Shown: positions 39,198 to 59,382 of the stretch, piece after piece
How positions within the stretch are numbered: position 1 is the first letter of the stretch
How the letters are laid out: each line of letters opens with the position of its first letter
Assembly (NCBI GenBank): GCA_001464585.1
Contig: LNFF01000025.1
Span: 62,001-126,000 of the forward strand
From: Gammaproteobacteria bacterium Ga0077554
Lineage (GTDB): Bacteria > Pseudomonadota > Gammaproteobacteria > Ga0077554 > Ga007554
Reading direction: 5' to 3'
DNA length: 64,000 nucleotides
The notes under the pieces: model-generated
The model's input: the letters and a program-made list of their open reading frames with translations, nothing else
Told to the model about the DNA's origin: nothing
Database searches by the model: none
Position numbers and translations under genes: made by a program

Positions 39198-39344
39198 TTT
39201 TTAGGATTATAGATTATCTATGTCCACTTCCCATAAAAGCCTGTAGCAAGGCCGATGCTTTGCCAGTAAAATAAAAACCCCCCGGGACACGAATGAATCT
39301 GGCTGGTTTCAGGTTATTGAAGGAACCTCTGATATGTGGCGTCC

Positions 39345-39501
39345 TGTCATTTCGACCCTCGCGAAAGCGGGGGAGAAATCCTGGATCTCTCAAAGTTCTC
39401 TCGCCTTCGTTCGAGACTCGAGACAAGGATTTCTCGGCAACCGCTCCCTGCGTTGCTCTACCTCCTGCATCCATGCAGTCGTCGCTACGCTCGAAATGAC
39501 A
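39345..39501. repeat. Dispersed palindromic repeat, copy 5
   Basis: TGTCATTTCGACCCTCGCGA at the left faces TCGCTACGCTCGAAATGACA at the right. This is the longest copy (157 bp), with the internal CTGCGTTGCTCTACCTCCTG block shared with copy 3. It runs into the 5' extension of the next frame, so translation from 39336 is an artefact. Confidence 0.85.
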
Positions 39502-39524
39502 TTCAGGGAATTCTTAAAATCGTG

Positions 39525-40748
39525 ATGCCAACATTCGCCTTGATTACAATCTTTTGCGCCGTAATTTTAACAGTGTGGACCATATTGCTTTGGTATTATC
39601 GTGGCGTGCTGCTGGCGCTCTGGCGTGAACCCGTACTGCGGCATCCCATACTGATTATTGAAAGCGATGATTGGGGACCGGGTCCCAAGGCCCACGGGCA
39701 ACAACTGCACCGCATCGCTAAAATATTGGAGCGCCATCATGACGCGCGTGGCAATGCCGCAGTAATGACGCTGGGGGTTGCGTTGGCTTTGCCCGATGTA
39801 AAACGCATGGCATTAAATGATTACGCACAATATTATCGCCAGTTGTTCTCGCCTCTGTTGTGCCCGGCAATCTGCGAGGTAATGCGGCGTGGTACGGCAT
39901 CCGGCATATTTGCCGTGCATATGCAGGGCTTGGAACATTACTGGCCGCCCACGCTGTTGTGGGCAATCAAAGCCAATGAAAAAGTTAAAGCATGGTTGTT
40001 GAGTGACGAATTTCCCAGAACCGAAGAGCTGCCTCCCCATCTGCGCAGCCGCTGGACGAATGCTACCAGCCTGCCATCGCGTCCTCTCCCTGAAGAACAA
40101 ATTAAAGCGGCTGTATCGCTGGAAGCAAAAATATTTTCCAGAATCTTTAGCGTAATGCCCGAGGTCGTGGTGCCCCCCGCATTTTGCTGGAATAACCTGG
40201 TGGAAAAAGCCTGGGCGGACGTGGGCGTGCGTATCATCGTTACCCCTGGCTACCGCTGTGAATCACATGACCGCGATGGTGGCATGACGGCGAAAGGATC
40301 GCTTATCTATAATGGCCAGATCAATGCGTATGGTCAGGTGTATGTGGTACGTGACGATTACTTTGAGCCAGGGTTAGGTCACCTGGCTGAAAAAGGATTG
40401 GCAGCGTTAGTTAAAAAAAGTAGTTTAGGCCGTCCTACGCTTTTGGAATCCCACCGGTTTAACTATGTTGATGATCCTGATGTTGCGGATGCCGCGCTGT
40501 CTCAACTGGATCATTTTCTGGAAGAAACAACCAAGCATTTTCCCAGTGTGCTTTTTATGTCTACTGCGAAATTGGTGGAAGTATTCGTGGCGGCCGATCC
40601 CGATTTTATTCAACGGAAAATTATGCGGCGCATAGGCGTATGGTTGTTACGCGCGCGTGAAGTACCAGCGTTGTGGAGAGTAGCCTGCCTGAGTGGTATG
40701 GTCATACCGGCATTCTTGTTATATAAAATCACTAAGCCTGCCCGCTGA
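39525..40748 (+). CDS. Membrane-anchored polysaccharide deacetylase-like protein
   Basis: A 407-residue protein that I start at ATG 39525 (MPTFALITIFCAVIL) because the longer frame is made of repeat DNA. One N-terminal membrane segment (about 4-30) is followed by LIIESDDWGPGP, the SDDWG metal-site variant found in NodB-like deacetylase relatives. GVFAVH-type and ITPGYRCESHD blocks, and a later HRFNYVDDP, resemble the other NodB-fold strands. It may deacetylate or otherwise trim a surface polysaccharide; catalysis is not certain. Its end overlaps the convergent glycosyltransferase gene by 17 bases. Confidence 0.65.
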   Translation: MPTFALITIFCAVILTVWTILLWYYRGVLLALWREPVLRHPILIIESDDWGPGPKAHGQQLHRIAKILERHHDARGNAAVMTLGVALALPDVKRMALNDYAQYYRQLFSPLLCPAICEVMRRGTASGIFAVHMQGLEHYWPPTLLWAIKANEKVKAWLLSDEFPRTEELPPHLRSRWTNATSLPSRPLPEEQIKAAVSLEAKIFSRIFSVMPEVVVPPAFCWNNLVEKAWADVGVRIIVTPGYRCESHDRDGGMTAKGSLIYNGQINAYGQVYVVRDDYFEPGLGHLAEKGLAALVKKSSLGRPTLLESHRFNYVDDPDVADAALSQLDHFLEETTKHFPSVLFMSTAKLVEVFVAADPDFIQRKIMRRIGVWLLRAREVPALWRVACLSGMVIPAFLLYKITKPAR

Positions 40749-42171: not shown

Positions 42172-43140
42172 TCAACGCATAGTTTTCTGTTTGATGCGGC
42201 GCAGCTTGCTAATCATGCTGGCGGGAATCAGGCTTAGCCAAACATAAATGAGTGTACGCAGCGAAAAGTTCTCTCTAAAACTTTCCATGAAAAGTGCATG
42301 AGCGCGCTGTGGGGTCGTTGAGGTGAAATACCAATAGCCTAAATCCCAAAGTGATTGGGCGACCACCTGATTGGCATTCAAGCCTTCTTTGCTTAAAGCA
42401 TCCGCGCCCCACACGCGGATGCTTTTCATGACGCGCACCATGTCGAGCAGCAACTTTTCTGTGGCTTGGGTGGCATTGTTGCCGTGTTGACGATAATGTA
42501 TCAGGACGTCTGCAAGACAAATAATGTCATACTCTATGGCAAGGCGCACCCATAACTCCAGGTCTTCACCATAGCGAATCGACGTATCGAACCCCCCCAC
42601 TTTTTCAAGCGCGGCTTTTCGTACCATAACGCTGCTGGTGGGAATAAAATTAACCTGTACCAGGCGGCTCAGGGCGGCTGGAATGGGTTGTCCGTTCAGC
42701 CCGGCAAACAGGGGGTAAAGGCCCTGTTTTTTAAACAATGAGTCGAGTAGCAGATTGCCGTGGGTATCTATATCGGCGCGATCAGTCGCCACCAGTCCCG
42801 CACGTGGATTGTCGATAAATATTTGCAACTGCCGTGCAGTTTTTTCAGGAAGCCAACGGTCATCAGCATCCAGAAAGGCAATGAGTTCTCCACTGGCGAT
42901 ACTAATTCCCCGATTGCGTGCTGCGGATACCCCTGCATTGGCCTGACGTATATAGGTAACATTGTTGCCCAACGCACTGATGACATGTTCAGTGTCATCG
43001 GTTGAGCCATCATCCACAACAATAATCTCATGTACGGGGCAGGTCTGTTGCAAGACACTTTCAATCGCTTCGGGCAAGAAGCGCGCGGCGTTGTGGGCGG
43101 GGATAACGACACTCACTCGATGATGATTATTGCCCCGCAT
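42172..43140 (-). CDS. Glycosyltransferase, GT2 family
   Basis: A 322-residue GT-A enzyme. The start ATG 43140 (MRGNNHHRVSVVIPAHNAAR) overlaps the end of the upstream fusion gene by 14 bases. Signatures are VVIPAHN, IIVVDDGSTDDTE, RNRGISIASGELIAFLDADD (DxD) and a downstream GEDLELW. A C-terminal basic tail ends in SKLRRIKQKTMR. It adds one sugar to the polysaccharide; specificity is unknown. Confidence 0.92.
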   Translation of the reverse strand: MRGNNHHRVSVVIPAHNAARFLPEAIESVLQQTCPVHEIIVVDDGSTDDTEHVISALGNNVTYIRQANAGVSAARNRGISIASGELIAFLDADDRWLPEKTARQLQIFIDNPRAGLVATDRADIDTHGNLLLDSLFKKQGLYPLFAGLNGQPIPAALSRLVQVNFIPTSSVMVRKAALEKVGGFDTSIRYGEDLELWVRLAIEYDIICLADVLIHYRQHGNNATQATEKLLLDMVRVMKSIRVWGADALSKEGLNANQVVAQSLWDLGYWYFTSTTPQRAHALFMESFRENFSLRTLIYVWLSLIPASMISKLRRIKQKTMR

Positions 43141-46100
43141 GGTGAATGTCCACGGTGTTCTGCGGGTCTGCATCGGGCTTCGGCGCAAGAAATGGGTGAT
43201 CAGGGTTCCATTGATGGGTGCGGGCATCCTTGAGTAACCATTGGTCAAGCAGCGCGCTCATTTTTTTCACGATGTCGGGGTGCAACGCTGACACATCATG
43301 TTGGCAGCCTGCGTCAGTGTCGAGATCAAATAGCCGCCGTGAAACACCCTGATGCATGGGAAGATACACCAGCTTCCAGCGGTCGGTACGTACCATGCGA
43401 TCCTTGGCGCTGATAATCATGTCTTTATAAATCGCTTTAATGGTCAGTGTTCCATCGCGCTTATCGGGAATTTCCAGCAGATCAGGCAGATCAGGATAGG
43501 TGATGTGATCTTCTTCCAGACTGGGAACGCGGGTCACCCAAATGCCGGTTTCAGCATAGGCGGCAAGGCCTGGATCGGTGATCTGGCCATGGATGCATTT
43601 CTTCAGTGACACGCCTTCCATTTCTTCGGGTATCGGCAAGCCCACCATATCCAGGAGGGTAGGCACCACATCAATGCTGCGCACGGTATGGCTGATGGTG
43701 CGACTTTGCGCATGATGCGGGTCAACGACAATGATCGGTATGCGTGAACTGTCATCGATGATGACACTATTGCCCTGGCCCCAGGTTTCCCGCTCGAAGA
43801 ATTCCATGCCGTGATCGCTATAGATCACAATAATGGTGTTATCAGTCATTCCGCATTGATCAAGGTGGTTGATGATGCGCGCCACTTCGTCGTCAAAGTT
43901 GCGCACACAGCCATCATACAGGTTAAGAATCTGTTCGAAATCGAAAAAGGCTTTACCTTGTTTTTGGCGCTGGATAACCTCGAAGGGTTCATTGAGGCCA
44001 CTCATCACATATTTTGAACCGCCGGCATATTGCTGGGAGGTATATTGGGTGTAGTAAGGATATTCCGAGCCAAACGGTGCGTGTGTGGCAGACATGAACA
44101 CATTCATGAAGAACGGCGCATCGTCTTTGGCGTAGTGGCTAATGGCTTCACGGGTACGCTTTCCCAGCTCGGATGTCATCGGCACACCCGCCAGATAATA
44201 GAGTTCAGGCAAAAAACGGCGACCGAAATTATTATGCGTAAAAAACGTCAAAAACAGCCGCAGATCTTTTGGCCCCTGGCGAATCAGATAGCGGATATTC
44301 CACTGGTCTTTCGGCAGGTCGAGATGCTCAAAGCCAAAGGGGAACTTGCCGAGATCCGAGCCACACCAGTCGCTGATCGCCAGCGTATGGTAACCTTGTT
44401 CGCGCAATAAACGCGGCAGTGGCCGGTGCCCGAGGTTGGATTCCTTGAGGGTGGTAAAGTTATCGCGAATGCCATGGCTATGTGGCCAGCGACCACACAG
44501 CAGCGAAGCCAGGCTGGGGGCAGTGCGTGCGCAGGGTACGTAGCATTGCTGAAAAAAAGTGCCGCGTTGCGCCAGTGCATCAAGTGTCGGCGTTAATCCG
44601 CGTTGATTGCCGTCCACGCCCAGGCGATCAGAACGTAACGAGTCCGATCCGATCATCAGAATATTTGGGCGACCGGTGGTGCGATCTGAGCGGTGCGGAC
44701 GCGGCTCCTTTTCTGGCTGCGCCCAGAAGGCAGGCAGCAGAAATGCCGCCGCTATCGCCAGTAATCCTAGTGCGAACTCAGTCTGATCTTGTAAAGCCGA
44801 ACGTACGCTTCCCGCAATCGCAACCGCCGCGAAGAGCAACAGCAGCAGTTGGCGTGCGCCTTTGATACGCTTCGGTGTCAGAAGCGCCCAGAGCGGATAG
44901 AAGCGGCTCATACGATAATTTGATGAAGCTTCGATGCTGCCGGGAATATGCAGTAGTTGGCGGCAGAACTGCAGGGCTGTGATAATTAAGATGCTCAGCA
45001 AGCCAAAACCTGCGGCGCTGTATTGATGTATGGGCTGATCTATGGAAAAATCCAGCGCCGTGGCCAGAGACCAATAAAAAATGATTCCTGCCATTGCCAT
45101 TAGCGTGCAGAGCACGAAGGCCCATGCGCTTAAACGGAACACAGCATAGAGCGAGTATGGCAGGTAATACTGCTTTATTTCTGCTTTGAGTTGGGGGCCG
45201 GTGCGCGTAAAGTTAAAAGCTGATTTGATTACCAGGCCGCTGACAAACAGCCCTGCAACAATCATGGCGATGACAGCGCCGGTTTCCAGCAGGGGTTTTA
45301 TCCACGTAATGGCGAGTCCTGTCAGGATTATGGGCGCTGCAATATTCGTTAACAACCCTAACCATTTGCCGGGCCATTTTCCGTGAAGGGGAAGGCGGCG
45401 CGGATGGGCTGCCGTATTTACTTCATGCAGTCCCTTGATTTCTCCCAGGGTTGCCGCTACGCGCATCAGAAAAAAGCGACGCCGATTTGATGCAAAGGAA
45501 AATAGGGTATGGGTAATATAAGTCGCAAGCTTTCGCCACATGTAGGCAGGCATTCTGCCCGTGCCGGATCCTAATCGCACCGCCGCATAGGTGCGGTGAA
45601 AGGCAAAGCGCATCAGAAAACCAAGCCTTAGCCGCTTGGGGTCAACGTAATGGTATTGAACAATATCAGGCACGTAATAGAGGCGTTCGCCCTGCGCGAG
45701 CGCCTTGAGAATATAGGCGGTATCTTCGCCTCCTCCGAGGTTATGGCCGCGTGGGCCCAGATCTGTTGAGAATTGCCCGACGCGCGCAAAGACCTCGGCT
45801 CTGATCATAAGGTTTCCCCCCGGCGGGGTGGTTTCCTCGGCTGAAACATAATGCGCCACCGCGCCTAATTCGAAATCAGGAATGGGCGGTGGGTATACCT
45901 TATAAGCGCCCTCATCACGCACCCATTCAGGTTCGGTGCCATCCCAATCGGGCAATATTCTGCCGCAGAACAGGGTAGCTTCAGGGTGAGTTTCTGCGGC
46001 GCGGCAGATATTAATTAAAAAATCTTCAGCCACTCTTTGGTCATCATCCACCAACACCACAAGCTCAGATGAGATACGCGGCAGCGCGCTGTTGAGGGCG

Positions 46101-46336
46101 TAAGATTTTCCCGCAGTAGGTTCCGCAAACCACTCAAGGGGTAAAGAATTGTTTATGGATGTGCGATCTTGATAAGTATCCAGCAACGCGTGAGTCTGAT
46201 CCGTGCAGGCATTGGCGGCGATAAGAATATCAACCTTGCACTCCAAGGGACGGCGGGCTGAATTGAGAGATTGCAGCAGGGGTTCAAGTAGATTACAGCG
46301 ATTATGCGTGCAGACAAGAACAGTAATACGTTTCAT
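43127..46336 (-). CDS. Fusion of GT2 glycosyltransferase, membrane region and sulfatase-superfamily domain
   Basis: A 1069-residue protein. Residues 1-300 are a GT2 domain (ITVLVCTHNRC, VVLVDDDQRV at about 92-101, GGGEDTAYI). Residues about 325-540 contain several membrane segments. Residues 557-1050 are an alkaline-phosphatase/sulfatase-fold domain: metal-site D565 in MIGSDSLRSDRLG, the nucleophile region CARTAPSLASLLCGRWPHSHG, and SDHGME. The position of the formylglycine-forming Cys/Ser is Thr605, so sulfate-ester hydrolysis of the usual kind is doubtful; a Thr nucleophile occurs in phospho-group transferases of this superfamily. It may extend and also modify the polysaccharide. The domain order could be confirmed by structure prediction. 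Confidence 0.85.
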   Translation of the reverse strand: MKRITVLVCTHNRCNLLEPLLQSLNSARRPLECKVDILIAANACTDQTHALLDTYQDRTSINNSLPLEWFAEPTAGKSYALNSALPRISSELVVLVDDDQRVAEDFLINICRAAETHPEATLFCGRILPDWDGTEPEWVRDEGAYKVYPPPIPDFELGAVAHYVSAEETTPPGGNLMIRAEVFARVGQFSTDLGPRGHNLGGGEDTAYILKALAQGERLYYVPDIVQYHYVDPKRLRLGFLMRFAFHRTYAAVRLGSGTGRMPAYMWRKLATYITHTLFSFASNRRRFFLMRVAATLGEIKGLHEVNTAAHPRRLPLHGKWPGKWLGLLTNIAAPIILTGLAITWIKPLLETGAVIAMIVAGLFVSGLVIKSAFNFTRTGPQLKAEIKQYYLPYSLYAVFRLSAWAFVLCTLMAMAGIIFYWSLATALDFSIDQPIHQYSAAGFGLLSILIITALQFCRQLLHIPGSIEASSNYRMSRFYPLWALLTPKRIKGARQLLLLLFAAVAIAGSVRSALQDQTEFALGLLAIAAAFLLPAFWAQPEKEPRPHRSDRTTGRPNILMIGSDSLRSDRLGVDGNQRGLTPTLDALAQRGTFFQQCYVPCARTAPSLASLLCGRWPHSHGIRDNFTTLKESNLGHRPLPRLLREQGYHTLAISDWCGSDLGKFPFGFEHLDLPKDQWNIRYLIRQGPKDLRLFLTFFTHNNFGRRFLPELYYLAGVPMTSELGKRTREAISHYAKDDAPFFMNVFMSATHAPFGSEYPYYTQYTSQQYAGGSKYVMSGLNEPFEVIQRQKQGKAFFDFEQILNLYDGCVRNFDDEVARIINHLDQCGMTDNTIIVIYSDHGMEFFERETWGQGNSVIIDDSSRIPIIVVDPHHAQSRTISHTVRSIDVVPTLLDMVGLPIPEEMEGVSLKKCIHGQITDPGLAAYAETGIWVTRVPSLEEDHITYPDLPDLLEIPDKRDGTLTIKAIYKDMIISAKDRMVRTDRWKLVYLPMHQGVSRRLFDLDTDAGCQHDVSALHPDIVKKMSALLDQWLLKDARTHQWNPDHPFLAPKPDADPQNTVDIHHAGQ

Positions 46337-46678: not shown

Positions 46679-47461
46679 ATGATTAAATGGTGCCTTATGG
46701 GGGTGCTTCTCCCCGTCGCAGTGGCGCAGGCCGTCAGTGATTTTGGGGCGACGCCGAGCGAGCAGGCCATGTGTCAGGCCGTGATTTATGATGGTCGGGA
46801 TACTTCAGATCGTGCAAACTGGGGGCATATGCACCACTTTTGCGACTGTGTGCGGTTCACCAATCGGGCTATTACGAAAACCGGGGTTGAGCGTGCCCAC
46901 GAAATCTCACGGGCCATAGATAATTGCGACTATGTTTTGAGTCATACCACGCCTGATTTTAATATGCGTGGCGAGGTTCACCTGCAAAAAGGCAAGGCGT
47001 TCAGCTTGCAAGGCAAAGGGTCGCAGGCCTCTTCGGAGTTTGTTCGGGCGCTTTCGATAAATCCCGATCTGATTCCTGCCTACGTGGCGCTGAGCGATCA
47101 TTATGCGCGGCTCGGCATACGCAAAGAAGCATTGAATTTTGCTGTTGAGGGCCTGAAACGTGCGCCTAACTCGCGGGTTTTACAACGCCGCTATACCGAG
47201 TTAGGCGGTAAGCTCCCTTTTCCTGAACCCTTAAAGAGAGAGCCGCCTGCAGTAGTGCCTGAGCAGGCCTCGCCTGCCGCTGAGGTGCAGCCAAATACCA
47301 CGAATAGTCAGCCTGCCGATGACAAGAAGACAGAGGTTGCTCCTTCAAGCAACGCTCCGGCTGCGGACAGTGCGGTTCCTGTCCCGCCTGCGCCCACTGA
47401 TGCAGCGCCTGTTATAGGAACACCTGCCAGTCCGTGGTGCCGGTTTTGTCCGCCTCCCTGA
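46679..47461 (+). CDS. Exported TPR protein of the polysaccharide locus
   Basis: A 260-residue protein with an N-terminal signal sequence (MIKWCLMGVLLPVAVAQA). Cysteine pairs in MCQAVIYDG and HMHHFCDCVRF resemble a small periplasmic domain I have seen next to TPR repeats in polysaccharide loci. TPR-like helices follow (VHLQKGKAFSLQGKGSQASS, ALSINPDLIPAYVALSDHYA). The last 70 residues are Pro/Ala-rich and probably unstructured. AGGAG lies six bases before the ATG. It is the only plus-strand gene inside this stretch, and its end is five bases from the end of the convergent sulfotransferase gene. Confidence 0.75.
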   Translation: MIKWCLMGVLLPVAVAQAVSDFGATPSEQAMCQAVIYDGRDTSDRANWGHMHHFCDCVRFTNRAITKTGVERAHEISRAIDNCDYVLSHTTPDFNMRGEVHLQKGKAFSLQGKGSQASSEFVRALSINPDLIPAYVALSDHYARLGIRKEALNFAVEGLKRAPNSRVLQRRYTELGGKLPFPEPLKREPPAVVPEQASPAAEVQPNTTNSQPADDKKTEVAPSSNAPAADSAVPVPPAPTDAAPVIGTPASPWCRFCPPP

Positions 47462-47465
47462 GGGA

Positions 47466-48437
47466 TTATTTACTACGCTTCCAGGTCACAAAGTGGTTAT
47501 GCACGCGCATTGCGGCTCTTATGGGCAAGGGTAACCTGCGGGCGGGGGTCATAAGCGCATAGCCATGCTCCTGAAGTGTGCCACCCGCCGCGCTTTCAAA
47601 TACACGGATTTGTGTCGAACTCATTTGGCTACGCCATTTATCAGCATTGTCAGATTGCACGGGTTTTTGCAGGAGAGGGGTTTTCCCCACCTCACCGGAT
47701 TTTTTGAATTCCAGCAAAGACTCGTTGAATTCCTCGCCGAGAAAATCGCAGATTTTCTGAAGCGCATTTTTTTGATTTGATAAAATATCTTCATAACGCA
47801 TTTCAAGGTATTGGCCAGGATTAAGCTTTGCCCCCTGTTCTCGTCCTGTTTCGACATACTGCTGCCAATATTTTGCGGCAAAGTAGGTATTGTAAACACC
47901 GAAATCATCCTGCCGGGCAAATAAGGAAAGCGCCACATCGCGCCCATCCCGAATCAAATGGATGATCTGCGCATCAGGAAACCACTCGATTATCTTTGAC
48001 AGATGCAACACGTAGTACGGCGTTTTATCACCCCAGCGGGCTTTCCCTTCGCCACGCGCATTTTTCCCGAACAAGCCAGTGATAATAGCCTGCATCGTAT
48101 GACGACCCTGGGTATGTAATTCCTGCGCCAGCGTGTCGATATCGAACTTCATGCCGTGCAAATCGGTGTCGAGAAAATCTGCGCTACGGCGATACATTTC
48201 TGCCAGCACGGCGCGGATGTTTTCCAGGCGTGTCAAATCGCCGTAGGTATCCACTGCGCGAAACAGCGGAATAAAGAAATGTGACTCACCTGTTGGCAGC
48301 GAAATACGCGGATGGGAACGCAACATATATTGCAGCAATGTAGTGCCAGAACGCGGTGCGCCAACGATAAAAATGGGGCCATTGTGCACATGAGTGGCCT
48401 GTGCAACACTTGTTTTATTGTGTGTATTTTCGGGCAT
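47466..48437 (-). CDS. Sulfotransferase (PAPS-dependent)
   Basis: It is predicted to move sulfate from PAPS to a carbohydrate hydroxyl. The 323 residues (ATG 48437, MPENTHNKTSV; GTG 48491 is the alternative) contain the 5'-phosphosulfate loop IVGAPRSGTTLLQYMLRSHP, IHLIRDGRDVALS with the 3'-phosphate-binding Arg and Ser region, and YEDILSN. These match the Sulfotransfer_3 group. With the sulfatase-fold fusion nearby this points to a sulfated polysaccharide. It appears to be the last gene of the long minus-strand transcript. Confidence 0.88.
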   Translation of the reverse strand: MPENTHNKTSVAQATHVHNGPIFIVGAPRSGTTLLQYMLRSHPRISLPTGESHFFIPLFRAVDTYGDLTRLENIRAVLAEMYRRSADFLDTDLHGMKFDIDTLAQELHTQGRHTMQAIITGLFGKNARGEGKARWGDKTPYYVLHLSKIIEWFPDAQIIHLIRDGRDVALSLFARQDDFGVYNTYFAAKYWQQYVETGREQGAKLNPGQYLEMRYEDILSNQKNALQKICDFLGEEFNESLLEFKKSGEVGKTPLLQKPVQSDNADKWRSQMSSTQIRVFESAAGGTLQEHGYALMTPARRLPLPIRAAMRVHNHFVTWKRSK

Positions 48438-48477
48438 GATTGTTACCGTATTAATTTTTGAAAGTGGTTTTTTTATG

Positions 48478-49404
48478 CTACTTTTTTCCACGCTGTCCCA
48501 AGCCCCAGCCTACCAAATAACCGATAAAATAAGCTGCATTCATTTCCCGGCGCAAGGTTACATTCGGGCCTTCGCGCAGTCGCTGCCCCAATGCCCCAAT
48601 GGCGGCCCTCCACAATTGAGGCAACAGATAAGCTGGTGGAATTTTCGATTTGTCGGCGCGTTCATGGTTGCCCTCTATGCGGCCCTGACGAAAGTGCAGG
48701 TCAAGGAAATAACTGCGCCGCAATTTAGGGGTTTGAATGCGATGCTGGATGATGGCGTCGGGCACCCAACGTACATGGCAACCGTGCGCGAGCAGACGCT
48801 GATAAATCTCTGTGTCTTCGCCACCGATATTGGCGGCGCCCTGGCGACCGAGGCGCGCATCAAAATTGCCAATCCGTGCGAACACACTGCGGCGGAAAGC
48901 GAAGTTACCACCGAAAATGGGGGTGGTGCTTTCCGTCAACCAGCGAGCAGTGCCGTGATTAAGTTTGCCAAGGAAACCCAGCAATTCATCTTGCAACCAG
49001 CTTGGGCGCGCACCATCTTCAAACAACACTTCTATACGCCCGCCTAACGCATCCGGCTGGTGTTCGAGCATCGCTTGTTCATAGGCGATTAACCAGGCAG
49101 GGTCGGGAGTTTCGTCATCGTCCATGAATAGCAGATAATCACCGCGCGCTTCCTGCAATGCACGGTTACGCGCATTTGACAACCCAAGTTTTTCTTCGCG
49201 CACAATGCGTATTTCAACCCCCGCAGGCCGCCAGTCCATTGTGGCGAGCAACTCCGGGGTGCCATCACTGCTGGCATTGTCGATGACGAGAAATTCCCAC
49301 GGCTGGCGGGGATGTTGTACGTGCGCCAGATCGGCCAGTGTCCGCGCCAGACGGTCGGCATGGTTATGGGTGCACAGGGCAACAGTGAGAAAGGGTTGAT
49401 TCAT
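48478..49404 (-). CDS. Glycosyltransferase, GT2 family
   Basis: A 308-residue GT-A enzyme with VALCTHNHADRLARTL at the N-terminus, FLVIDNASSDGT, LGLSNARNRALQEARGDYLL, the metal-site MDDDETPDPAW, and GGNFAFRRSVF plus IGGEDTEIYQRLL further on. The C-terminus (about 250-308) has one hydrophobic stretch. Its N-terminal half is similar in style to the GT2 part of the fusion at 43127. It lies 40 bases before the sulfotransferase gene. Confidence 0.92.
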   Translation of the reverse strand: MNQPFLTVALCTHNHADRLARTLADLAHVQHPRQPWEFLVIDNASSDGTPELLATMDWRPAGVEIRIVREEKLGLSNARNRALQEARGDYLLFMDDDETPDPAWLIAYEQAMLEHQPDALGGRIEVLFEDGARPSWLQDELLGFLGKLNHGTARWLTESTTPIFGGNFAFRRSVFARIGNFDARLGRQGAANIGGEDTEIYQRLLAHGCHVRWVPDAIIQHRIQTPKLRRSYFLDLHFRQGRIEGNHERADKSKIPPAYLLPQLWRAAIGALGQRLREGPNVTLRREMNAAYFIGYLVGWGLGQRGKK

Positions 49405-49555: not shown

Positions 49556-50353
49556 TTATTCATTGCGGCGCATGCCCAGCCGTGCCAATAGTCGACTTGC
49601 GGCATAGGCGGCGGTATGGGTCAGACTGCCATCGTTGCTGCCGAGGGTGATTTTTCTGCGTAGCGCTGTGGCGCTGTCCGTGCCGAATACATCCAGGCGA
49701 CGCAAACGGAAACGGTCGATGTCGCGGCGATTAAATCCCGGTTGCACTGAAAAGGCCGCGCGATAACCCGCCGCCTGTGTCGCGTGCAATACGCGGTCAT
49801 CGTAACGGCCATACGGGTAAGCGAGATAATCAACTGTATCATCCAGTAGAGCTTGCAGGTCATTACGCGCACCCGCGAGCTGATCGCGCAATGCGCTGTC
49901 ATCAAGCGTTGGCAGATCAGCGTGATTGCGGGTGTGGGAATGAAAACTGAAGCCACTGGCACGCAGTTCACGGATATGCGATGCGTCCATTAAAGGGTAA
50001 GTGATTCCGCTGGGATTATGTTCCTCACACCACGCATCACGTTGACCAATCAATTGACTCACCAGGAATACTGTGGCCGGCCAGCCCAATGTTTTCAACA
50101 CTGGTGCGGCATGTTCATGCACGCCGAGGAAGCCATCGTCAAATGTGAGCAAAAAAGATTGGTTCGGCAATTCTTTTCGGCCGTCGAGCCAGGCAAAGAA
50201 GTTGTCTATGGTCACTGCTTGCCAGCCAGCGCGTGCCAGCGTATGCATGTGTTCGGCAAAACGCTGCGGACTGACGCAATACTTGCGTTCCCAATCATTA
50301 TGCGCATCACCGATGCGGTGATACATGAGTATGGGAATCCGTTCGGCGTTCAT
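49556..50353 (-). CDS. Polysaccharide deacetylase (NodB fold)
   Basis: It is predicted to remove acetyl groups from N-acetylated sugars. The 265 residues show ILMYHRIGD, the metal-site Asp pair in LLTFDDGFLG, the two metal histidines in FHSHTRNHADLPTL and a catalytic LAYPYGRYDD block. No signal peptide is visible, so action may be cytoplasmic or on lipid-linked precursor. Its start overlaps the stop of the upstream GT2 gene in ATGA. Confidence 0.93.
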   Translation of the reverse strand: MNAERIPILMYHRIGDAHNDWERKYCVSPQRFAEHMHTLARAGWQAVTIDNFFAWLDGRKELPNQSFLLTFDDGFLGVHEHAAPVLKTLGWPATVFLVSQLIGQRDAWCEEHNPSGITYPLMDASHIRELRASGFSFHSHTRNHADLPTLDDSALRDQLAGARNDLQALLDDTVDYLAYPYGRYDDRVLHATQAAGYRAAFSVQPGFNRRDIDRFRLRRLDVFGTDSATALRRKITLGSNDGSLTHTAAYAASRLLARLGMRRNE

Positions 50354-57690: not shown

Positions 57691-59382
57691 TCAGGCCGTC
57701 GGGGCGGGAGGGCGCGCGAGTACGGCTTCAGCATTGCCACCCAATGAGGAGGGCGGCAATCCCATATTCATCGCCTCCAGGTCGGCACAGGCCTCCTCAT
57801 ACCAGTCAAGGTATTCGGTATGGTCGGGAAATTCTTGGCACAGATGCCATAAAGCTTCAGCCCAGAAGCCCAGCGCATAGCGCTCGTATTTCAGCTCTTT
57901 CCAGCGTCCGCGTACGCCACTGGTTTGGGCGAATTGTGCAGCTTCATTGATGGCCGTATCAAATCGGGTACCACCGAAGCGCCGCCGCGCGCGCACCAGA
58001 TCCATGAGATTGACCGTGTGATAGTGAAACGCCCAACTGCCCAGCCCCAGATGGCGGTCAATATAACCACCCGGCATGACCAGACGCGGAAAACGGTTCT
58101 TGATGCGGTACAGATTGGGAATGAATACTTGCCAGCCGATGCGTTTCCACAGGCGTTGCCACAACGGCAGGCGCATGGCCTGTGCAGTGGGCAGGAGCGT
58201 TAGATTGATGGCCGAGAAAAGCAGTCGATAAAGCCACTCTGCGGATCTCAGCGCCAACACTGCCTGCGCACTTGTCACGCCGGAATCGACCAATGGGGCA
58301 TATTGCGCGTCGCCGCTCAGTTGACGGTAGCGATCCAGCGCGATCAGGATATCCAGGTGAGTGTTGAGGACCAGCATATTCTGCGGCGACTTGCCCAGCG
58401 CCTGCCCCGGCAACCACTTGAAGGGCGCACCATTCATGCCGGCTTCGGTCAATTCCAGTTCGTCATGAAAGAACCACGCGCCCGCTTCTGTTGAGTCATG
58501 CTTATCCGAAATAAAGCGCATGCCCCGTGCCAGCGCAGTCCGCACAGCCAGGTCATCAGTTTCGCTCAACGCATCCATCATCAAGTGCATGGCCGAACAG
58601 TGCAGGCGGTAGTGGGATTCCATGTCCTCTGTCCACTCGCCGTGGCGGAAGCCACCGTCTTCACTCTGACGTGAAAGCACGGATAACAGCAACTGGGTTT
58701 TTAACAGACCATAAATGCGCTTGCCCGTAGCGCGATGTAGACCATTAAAAATCAGATGCAATGCGTGCGCATCGTTCTCCGAACAAATGCGGCGTTTGTG
58801 CGGCCACGCGTAGCGGTCTTCATATACCCAGCCGTGAATCAGATGGCGATACAGATCAGCAGGTTTTCCGTAACGGGTGTGCGAACCAAGCAGGAAATAG
58901 CCGTGTATTTCCACCGGCGTCAGTGTTTGCAATTCGTCAATCAGTGATGGATCGTTGAGCCGCCAGATCACCGCATCAAGTGTCCAATTCTCCGAGGTAT
59001 TTTTGGGCAGCGTGGCAAAGGCAATTTTCACGCCACTTGAATCCAGGTTGAAATCTTCCCATGCGGCAGCGCGTTCTTCGAGAATATGGCCTTGCGCGCT
59101 GACACGTCGTAGCGTCGCCGGAGTAGGCAGCCAGTAACTCGGCATAGCCGCATCGCGGCTACGTAGCAGCCAGCCACCCGCAGCACAGCGTTGCAGCGCG
59201 TAGTTTCCATCCAGCCGGAAACTGATGGCGGCGTCGGTACGCAAAAACACACAATCCGCGTTTTCGAATGTGTCTTGTACGCGTTGTATGTCGTCGGCAA
59301 GGATAGTGCCGCGTTGCCCGTGAGACAAGCGTAGATGAGACGCATCTGCGGTAAAGAATGTATTGATATCGAATTCGGCCAT
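57691..59382 (-). CDS. Hypothetical protein of the polysaccharide locus, possible alpha/alpha-toroid enzyme
   Basis: I do not recognise this 563-residue soluble protein with confidence. Residues about 200-540 are helical and rich in Trp, His and Tyr (SEDGGFRHGEWTEDMESHYR, AGAWFFHDELELTEAGMN, VLNTHLDILIALDRYRQLSG), with the spacing seen in (alpha/alpha)6-toroid enzymes such as glucuronyl epimerases, unsaturated glucuronyl hydrolases and polysaccharide lyases. The N-terminal 190 residues are beta-rich. No signal peptide is seen. It lies between two GT4 genes, overlapping neither. An epimerase or lyase role is inference only. Confidence 0.6.
   Translation of the reverse strand: MAEFDINTFFTADASHLRLSHGQRGTILADDIQRVQDTFENADCVFLRTDAAISFRLDGNYALQRCAAGGWLLRSRDAAMPSYWLPTPATLRRVSAQGHILEERAAAWEDFNLDSSGVKIAFATLPKNTSENWTLDAVIWRLNDPSLIDELQTLTPVEIHGYFLLGSHTRYGKPADLYRHLIHGWVYEDRYAWPHKRRICSENDAHALHLIFNGLHRATGKRIYGLLKTQLLLSVLSRQSEDGGFRHGEWTEDMESHYRLHCSAMHLMMDALSETDDLAVRTALARGMRFISDKHDSTEAGAWFFHDELELTEAGMNGAPFKWLPGQALGKSPQNMLVLNTHLDILIALDRYRQLSGDAQYAPLVDSGVTSAQAVLALRSAEWLYRLLFSAINLTLLPTAQAMRLPLWQRLWKRIGWQVFIPNLYRIKNRFPRLVMPGGYIDRHLGLGSWAFHYHTVNLMDLVRARRRFGGTRFDTAINEAAQFAQTSGVRGRWKELKYERYALGFWAEALWHLCQEFPDHTEYLDWYEEACADLEAMNMGLPPSSLGGNAEAVLARPPAPTA

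Follow-up and report, generated by a model that had tools for sequence, protein, structure and literature searches.

The fusion gene and its relatives

The window analysed here is a 64,000-nucleotide stretch of Gammaproteobacteria bacterium Ga0077554 (contig LNFF01000025.1, positions 62,001 to 126,000). It encodes, at 43127-46336 on the minus strand, a protein of 1069 residues in which a GT2 glycosyltransferase, a six-helix membrane block and a sulfatase-fold domain are fused. A first-pass annotation of the sequence had given these coordinates and this three-part architecture without the strand, and both agree with the open reading frame (ORF) call and with Pfam: translation starts at the ATG at 46336 and the ORF is a single gene. 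The GT2 head (GT-A type; residues 1-310, 45407-46336, minus strand like all parts of the gene) is matched by PF00535 and PF13641 (Glycos_transf_2 at residues 5-151, E-value: 3e-11). The membrane block covers residues 322-538 (44723-45373). The C-terminal domain has a sulfatase/alkaline-phosphatase fold (residues 554-1040, 43217-44677) and matches Sulfatase PF00884 at residues 557-899 (E-value: 1.8e-44).

Scanning GTDB genomes yielded 128 relatives, and 80 of their loci were kept. Their hosts are Thiobacillus, Candidatus Nitrotoga, Sulfuriferula, Sulfuricella, Thauera, Aromatoleum, Hydrogenophilales and some gammaproteobacterial metagenome-assembled genomes, many of them environmental bacteria, and the genes lie in exopolysaccharide clusters. 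The first-pass annotation had proposed a search for other fusions with the same domain order, and these proved to be the rule: 72 of the 84 distinct proteins are fused and 12 are unfused, one of the latter (L081) being cut by a contig end. Full-length fusions occur elsewhere in the family (L004, L005, L006 and L008), and in a genome of the same genus (L007) the membrane-sulfatase part is encoded on its own, following a GT2 gene. Because the full-length fusion recurs in these genomes and in many betaproteobacteria, the joining of two genes by a sequencing error is excluded. Stops were flagged inside a few tblastn matches. Individual checking covered G003, with the cases in G451, G460 and G479 lying outside it; the G003 ORF is open throughout and its flagged stop was taken as terminal. 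In a phylum sample of 397 genomes (E-value cutoff: 1e-60, at most three candidates scored per genome), only the window's own copy was found. No relatives were found in viral contigs and plasmids yielded only distant sulfatase-domain matches, so a phage or plasmid origin was rejected.

Active site, fold and membrane topology

The C/S-X-P/A-X-R motif is characteristic of sulfatases (PMC12421950). In a multiple alignment with sulfatase-family proteins of Halomontanus, Persicobacter, Deinococcus and others, residue 605 of the fusion, a threonine within R604-T-A-P-S608 (codon at 44522-44524), falls exactly on the Cys of this motif. The first-pass annotation had put Thr605 at the nucleophile position, and the alignment bears out this placement: all 84 aligned relatives have Thr there, and none has Cys or Ser. 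The metal site can also be predicted, as Asp565 (codon at 44642-44644), Asp841 and His842 (codons at 43811-43816). This trio matches the choline sulfatase ligands Asp14, Asp296 and His297 (PMC5870055). T605, D565, D841, H842, R604 and H752 are invariant in the 84 aligned relatives. The Arg of the sulfatase motif is replaced by Leu in 83 proteins and by Met in one, and the Lys and His of the sulfatase GKWH motif are lost as well (the strand reads SDWC/A, with D656 for Lys and C/A/S658 for His). Since the formylglycine chemistry is lost, the alignment argues against a sulfatase function; the strictness of the conservation likewise argues against a dead domain. Among superfamily members of the Thr type, mutations support a report that Thr is the likely nucleophile of MCR-1 and related phosphoethanolamine transferases (PMC5031297), and YejM has been reported as a phosphatase (PMC7576196).

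AlphaFold2 models were obtained for the full-length fusion (pLDDT 88.2, pTM 0.80) and for the sulfatase-fold domain (pLDDT 83.6, pTM 0.89). The top solved structure is 6hr5 (VIA Z 38.9; root-mean-square deviation 2.6 over 358 residues), followed by matches that include SpAS2 (4upl, Z 36.6), choline sulfatase (6fny) and a phosphonate monoester hydrolase (PMH; 2vqr), the last two with Z about 34. As modelled, the nearest folds among the matches listed are S1 sulfatases and PMHs. None of LtaS, EptA and OpgB is among the 50 matches listed, which does not imply a different fold, and the NCBIfam models for LtaS, YejM and MCR give only weak local profile matches. The parallel with such enzymes drawn in the first-pass annotation thus holds for the type of nucleophile, whereas the closest folds listed lie elsewhere.

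GT2 enzymes are cytoplasmic, where the nucleotide-sugar donors are. Six hydrophobic peaks in the fusion sequence agree with six helices in the AlphaFold2 model (residues 322-345, 347-374, 385-427, 438-463, 488-515 and 519-538). Across the 72 fusions the mean number of Lys and Arg residues per loop, from the N- to the C-terminal side, is 5.0, 0.7, 4.8, 0.35, 6.2, 1.35 and 3.9, a strict alternation that corresponds to the textbook inside/outside pattern. With a cytoplasmic GT2, six helices and this distribution of positive charges, the sulfatase-fold domain is predicted to be cytoplasmic, on the same side as the GT2. Helix 1 is missing from five unfused cores (L066, L088, L089, L091 and L092), which have a short tail at the N-terminus; with that tail outside, their five helices would preserve the orientation of the core.

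Exchangeable heads and gene neighbourhood

The same core occurs with three kinds of GT2 head: GTa in 56 proteins, GTb in 13 and GTc in 3. The GT2 motif D97-D98-D99 and E204 are conserved in the head of the window's protein, and D97-D99 and E204 are kept in GTa and GTb heads; in the three GTc heads DAG replaces the Asp triad. A quick core tree, built without bootstrap, has 18 changes of head label, and its starred branches alone force at least seven for GTb. Proteins L061 and L043 have cores that are 88-92% identical and heads that are 42% identical; for L084 and L080, with cores in the same range, head identity is 22%. The break in identity lies near residue 320, just N-terminal to helix 1. 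Heads of one kind also occur on more distant cores (L084 and L082 heads, 77% identity). Where the core is encoded separately, the gene immediately before it on that strand is a GT2 gene. The two are at most 86 bp apart, or overlap, where the upstream GT2 is intact; in L083 the GT2 reading frame is apparently broken. These upstream GT2s belong to several kinds. Because heads are swapped and split cores follow varied GT2 genes, the core is, as far as these comparisons go, bound to having a GT2 partner and not to one particular GT2.

The fusion gene belongs to a polysaccharide cluster on the minus strand. The first genes of this cluster lie beyond the window and encode Wzm- and Wzt-type ABC transporters and an FkbM methyltransferase (L100); about a dozen glycosyltransferases, an asparagine synthase, a deacetylase and a sulfotransferase follow before the fusion is reached. 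Conserved members upstream of the fusion are a polysaccharide deacetylase (49556-50353, minus strand; 37 of 54 assessable loci) and a GT2 (48478-49404, minus strand). The Sulfotransfer_3 gene at 47466-48491 (minus strand) also lies upstream, as does a related gene in 33 of the 54 loci. On the other side, a further GT2 gene of the cluster (42172-43248, minus strand) has its likely start ATG near 43140, so that some 14 nt overlap with the stop end of the fusion. In 12 of 33 genomes, this one among them, the contig carries a Wzt_C gene on the strand of the fusion, 4-25 kb upstream. The ABC2_membrane scan is too general by itself and served for linkage only.

A TPR protein with a Cys-Pro tail is encoded at 46679-47461 (plus strand). 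Its linkage to the fusion is kept in 65 of 80 loci, although the orientation varies. The two genes are divergent in the window; in relatives (L004, L005, L006 and L008) they are convergent, with 3' ends that overlap or abut. The Cys-containing tail is conserved and reads PWCRFCPPP in closer relatives. The plus-strand gene at 39336-40748 encodes a weakly GH57/polysaccharide-deacetylase-like protein (PF03065 at threshold), and most relatives also have such a gene next to the TPR and glycosyltransferase genes, on the opposite strand. The 563-residue product of 57691-59382 (minus strand) has no Pfam or NCBIfam match. Polysaccharide loci of Thiobacillus and Nitrotoga (L043, L071 and L077) contain copies with 61-67% identity, which gives the protein the look of a polysaccharide enzyme yet to be characterised. 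Immediately beyond the window, the Wzt-type and Wzm-type transporter genes are separated by a gene with a KilA-N domain (L100:5633-6463, minus strand).

In Candidatus Nitrotoga sp. 1052 the fusion is lengthened to 1454 residues by a C-terminal domain similar to CDP-glycerol glycerophosphotransferase (L087:10051-11268; E-value: 5.7e-13). This extra domain is a single hint of phospho-glycan chemistry.

Proposed function and comparison with known systems

The sulfatase-fold domain probably attaches a phosphate-type group to the growing sugar chain, or takes one off, before the chain is exported. As a tentative reading, which falls somewhat short of probable, the fusion is proposed to be a bifunctional, membrane-anchored enzyme of surface-polysaccharide assembly, whose GT2 and cytosol-facing, Thr-dependent phosphoryl domain modify the same nascent glycan. 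The GT2 head would add a sugar to a lipid-linked glycan. The Thr-type domain would then work through a phospho-threonine intermediate and, still at the inner face of the membrane, furnish that glycan with a phosphate-type substituent such as phosphate or the head group of a phospholipid, after which the modified glycan would be exported. Wzm/Wzt-type pathways complete their glycans in the cytoplasm. Cytoplasmic phospho-capping is known for WbdD (PMC3482155). As the core stays constant while its GT2 heads are swapped, it may recognise something shared, such as a lipid carrier, a donor lipid or a common acceptor, and the pattern suggests that the head sets the sugar. From these observations we infer phosphoryl chemistry, transfer over hydrolysis, and the substrate. 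The first-pass annotation had likewise suggested that the enzyme may add a phospho-group to the glycan that it extends. Since both catalytic domains are predicted to face the cytoplasm, action on the same glycan has gained in plausibility; transfer of a phospho-group stays a proposal.

The main rival, although unlikely, is a cytosol-facing phosphodiesterase or phosphatase that trims a phosphoryl group from a lipid-diphosphate carrier, a nucleotide or a donor-lipid product, without transfer. The same residues would suit hydrolysis, the nearest solved folds include PMHs and phosphodiesterases, and the phosphatase YejM is of the Thr type (PMC7576196). However, PMHs rely on the formylglycine that the fusion lacks, and the permanent coupling to a GT2 within a synthesis cluster suits modification at least equally. 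It is improbable that the Thr-type domain lies outside the cytoplasm, modifying the glycan after export as LtaS or EptA would. LtaS, EptA and OpgB act outside the cytoplasm, and all membrane-bound Thr-type relatives known to us face outwards. For phosphoethanolamine transferases, the catalytic domains are periplasmic (PMC5031297). Set against this are the six helices, the cytoplasmic GT2 head and the strict positive-inside alternation. A non-catalytic domain serving as scaffold or length sensor for the GT2 would account for the loss of several canonical sulfate-binding residues, but it is quite improbable given that even highly diverged cores share an unchanged nucleophile, metal ligands and many polar residues, unlike a decayed site. 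An unusual sulfatase or sulfate-handling enzyme, partnered with the neighbouring sulfotransferase, is very improbable. S1 sulfatases do provide the closest sequence and fold matches, and a sulfotransferase gene is near in more than half of the loci assessed. Against such an enzyme stand the replacements of the formylglycine residue, the motif Arg and the GKWH Lys, the 21 of 54 loci with no sulfotransferase, and the futility of a sulfatase sharing a compartment with a sulfotransferase of the 3'-phosphoadenosine-5'-phosphosulfate (PAPS) type.

Several observations weigh against glycan phospho-modification at the cytoplasmic face. Among the matches listed, the fold is closest to sulfatases and phosphonate hydrolases and not to known phosphotransferases, and the frequent nearness of a sulfotransferase leaves sulfur chemistry in play. 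The glycerophosphotransferase-like fusion is a single case, two other genomes having their match on other contigs. Much of the Thiobacillus/Thauera group has no Wzt_C gene in the genome, and there the fusion lies about 15-40 kb from an XrtA-type exosortase gene. Because some clusters adjoin such a locus without a genomic Wzt_C, the export route is, judging by gene content, not uniform across clusters.

Databases label proteins of this fusion type as sulfatases although the sulfatase chemistry is missing. If phospho-modification at the cytoplasmic face is correct, the superfamily would gain a role in building polysaccharides inside the cell, and exchanging the GT2 heads of one core would offer bacteria a direct route to surface polymer diversity. 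Both domains, and homologues in cluster maps, are already known. The literature search found no described GT2-sulfatase fusion, and no description of a cytosol-facing Thr-type arrangement or of exchangeable GT2 heads.

The S1 formylglycine sulfatases and PMHs share with the fusion a common fold (VIA Z 32-39) and the Asp/Asp/His metal trio. The fusion differs from them in having Thr for the formylglycine Cys/Ser, in the loss of the CxPxR Arg and the GKWH Lys and His, and in being membrane-bound and fused to a GT2. EptA, MCR-1, LtaS and OpgB resemble it in the Thr at the nucleophile position, the metal site and a helical membrane block ahead of the catalytic domain, but in the fusion this domain is predicted to be cytoplasmic instead of extracytoplasmic. 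The O-antigen chain terminator WbdD offers a functional precedent, as it carries out cytoplasmic phospho-modification of a lipid-linked glycan in a Wzm/Wzt pathway (PMC3482155); it is a kinase/methyltransferase of unrelated fold, with no glycosyltransferase fusion. A sulfatase-like protein from a Leptospira borgpetersenii plasmid (WP_004278338.1; L093:5116-7569) shares with the fusion the Thr position (here RTFPA) and the ETGIW motif, and is 28% identical to it over 565 alignment columns. It has no GT2, a different membrane part and no surrounding polysaccharide cluster. This protein indicates that there is a wider Thr-type clade of 'sulfatase-like' proteins.

The closest counterparts by cluster type are in Thauera and Rubrivivax, where exopolysaccharide (EPS) clusters have the order asparagine synthase, GT2, deacetylase, GT2, hypothetical protein, GT2, sulfatase. 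These homologues are named in cluster maps only and were compared here by map, not by protein sequence. The Rubrivivax gelatinosus counterpart, RGS1_10427 (sulfatase, wbbL), lies in an autoaggregation cluster and is unmarked among the transposon-hit genes (PMC3684757). The Thauera aminoaromatica MZ1T cluster includes mz1t_3253, 'sulfatase [wbbL]' (PMC4784049). We infer that mz1t_3253 is the fusion because of its place in the gene order, its name wbbL and the fusions present in T. aminoaromatica S2 (L073) and Thauera sp. 28 (L064). In the literature, no functional test or study of either protein was found, nor any treatment of what they do, of their topology, or of a fusion or Thr nucleophile in them. 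The MZ1T EPS consists of rhamnose, galacturonic acid, GlcNAc and FucNAc with 'possible nonsugar substitutes esterified', and flocculation returned when the deacetylase gene mz1t_3249 was complemented (PMC4784049). Flocculation, which needs this homologous cluster in MZ1T, is the settling of sludge.

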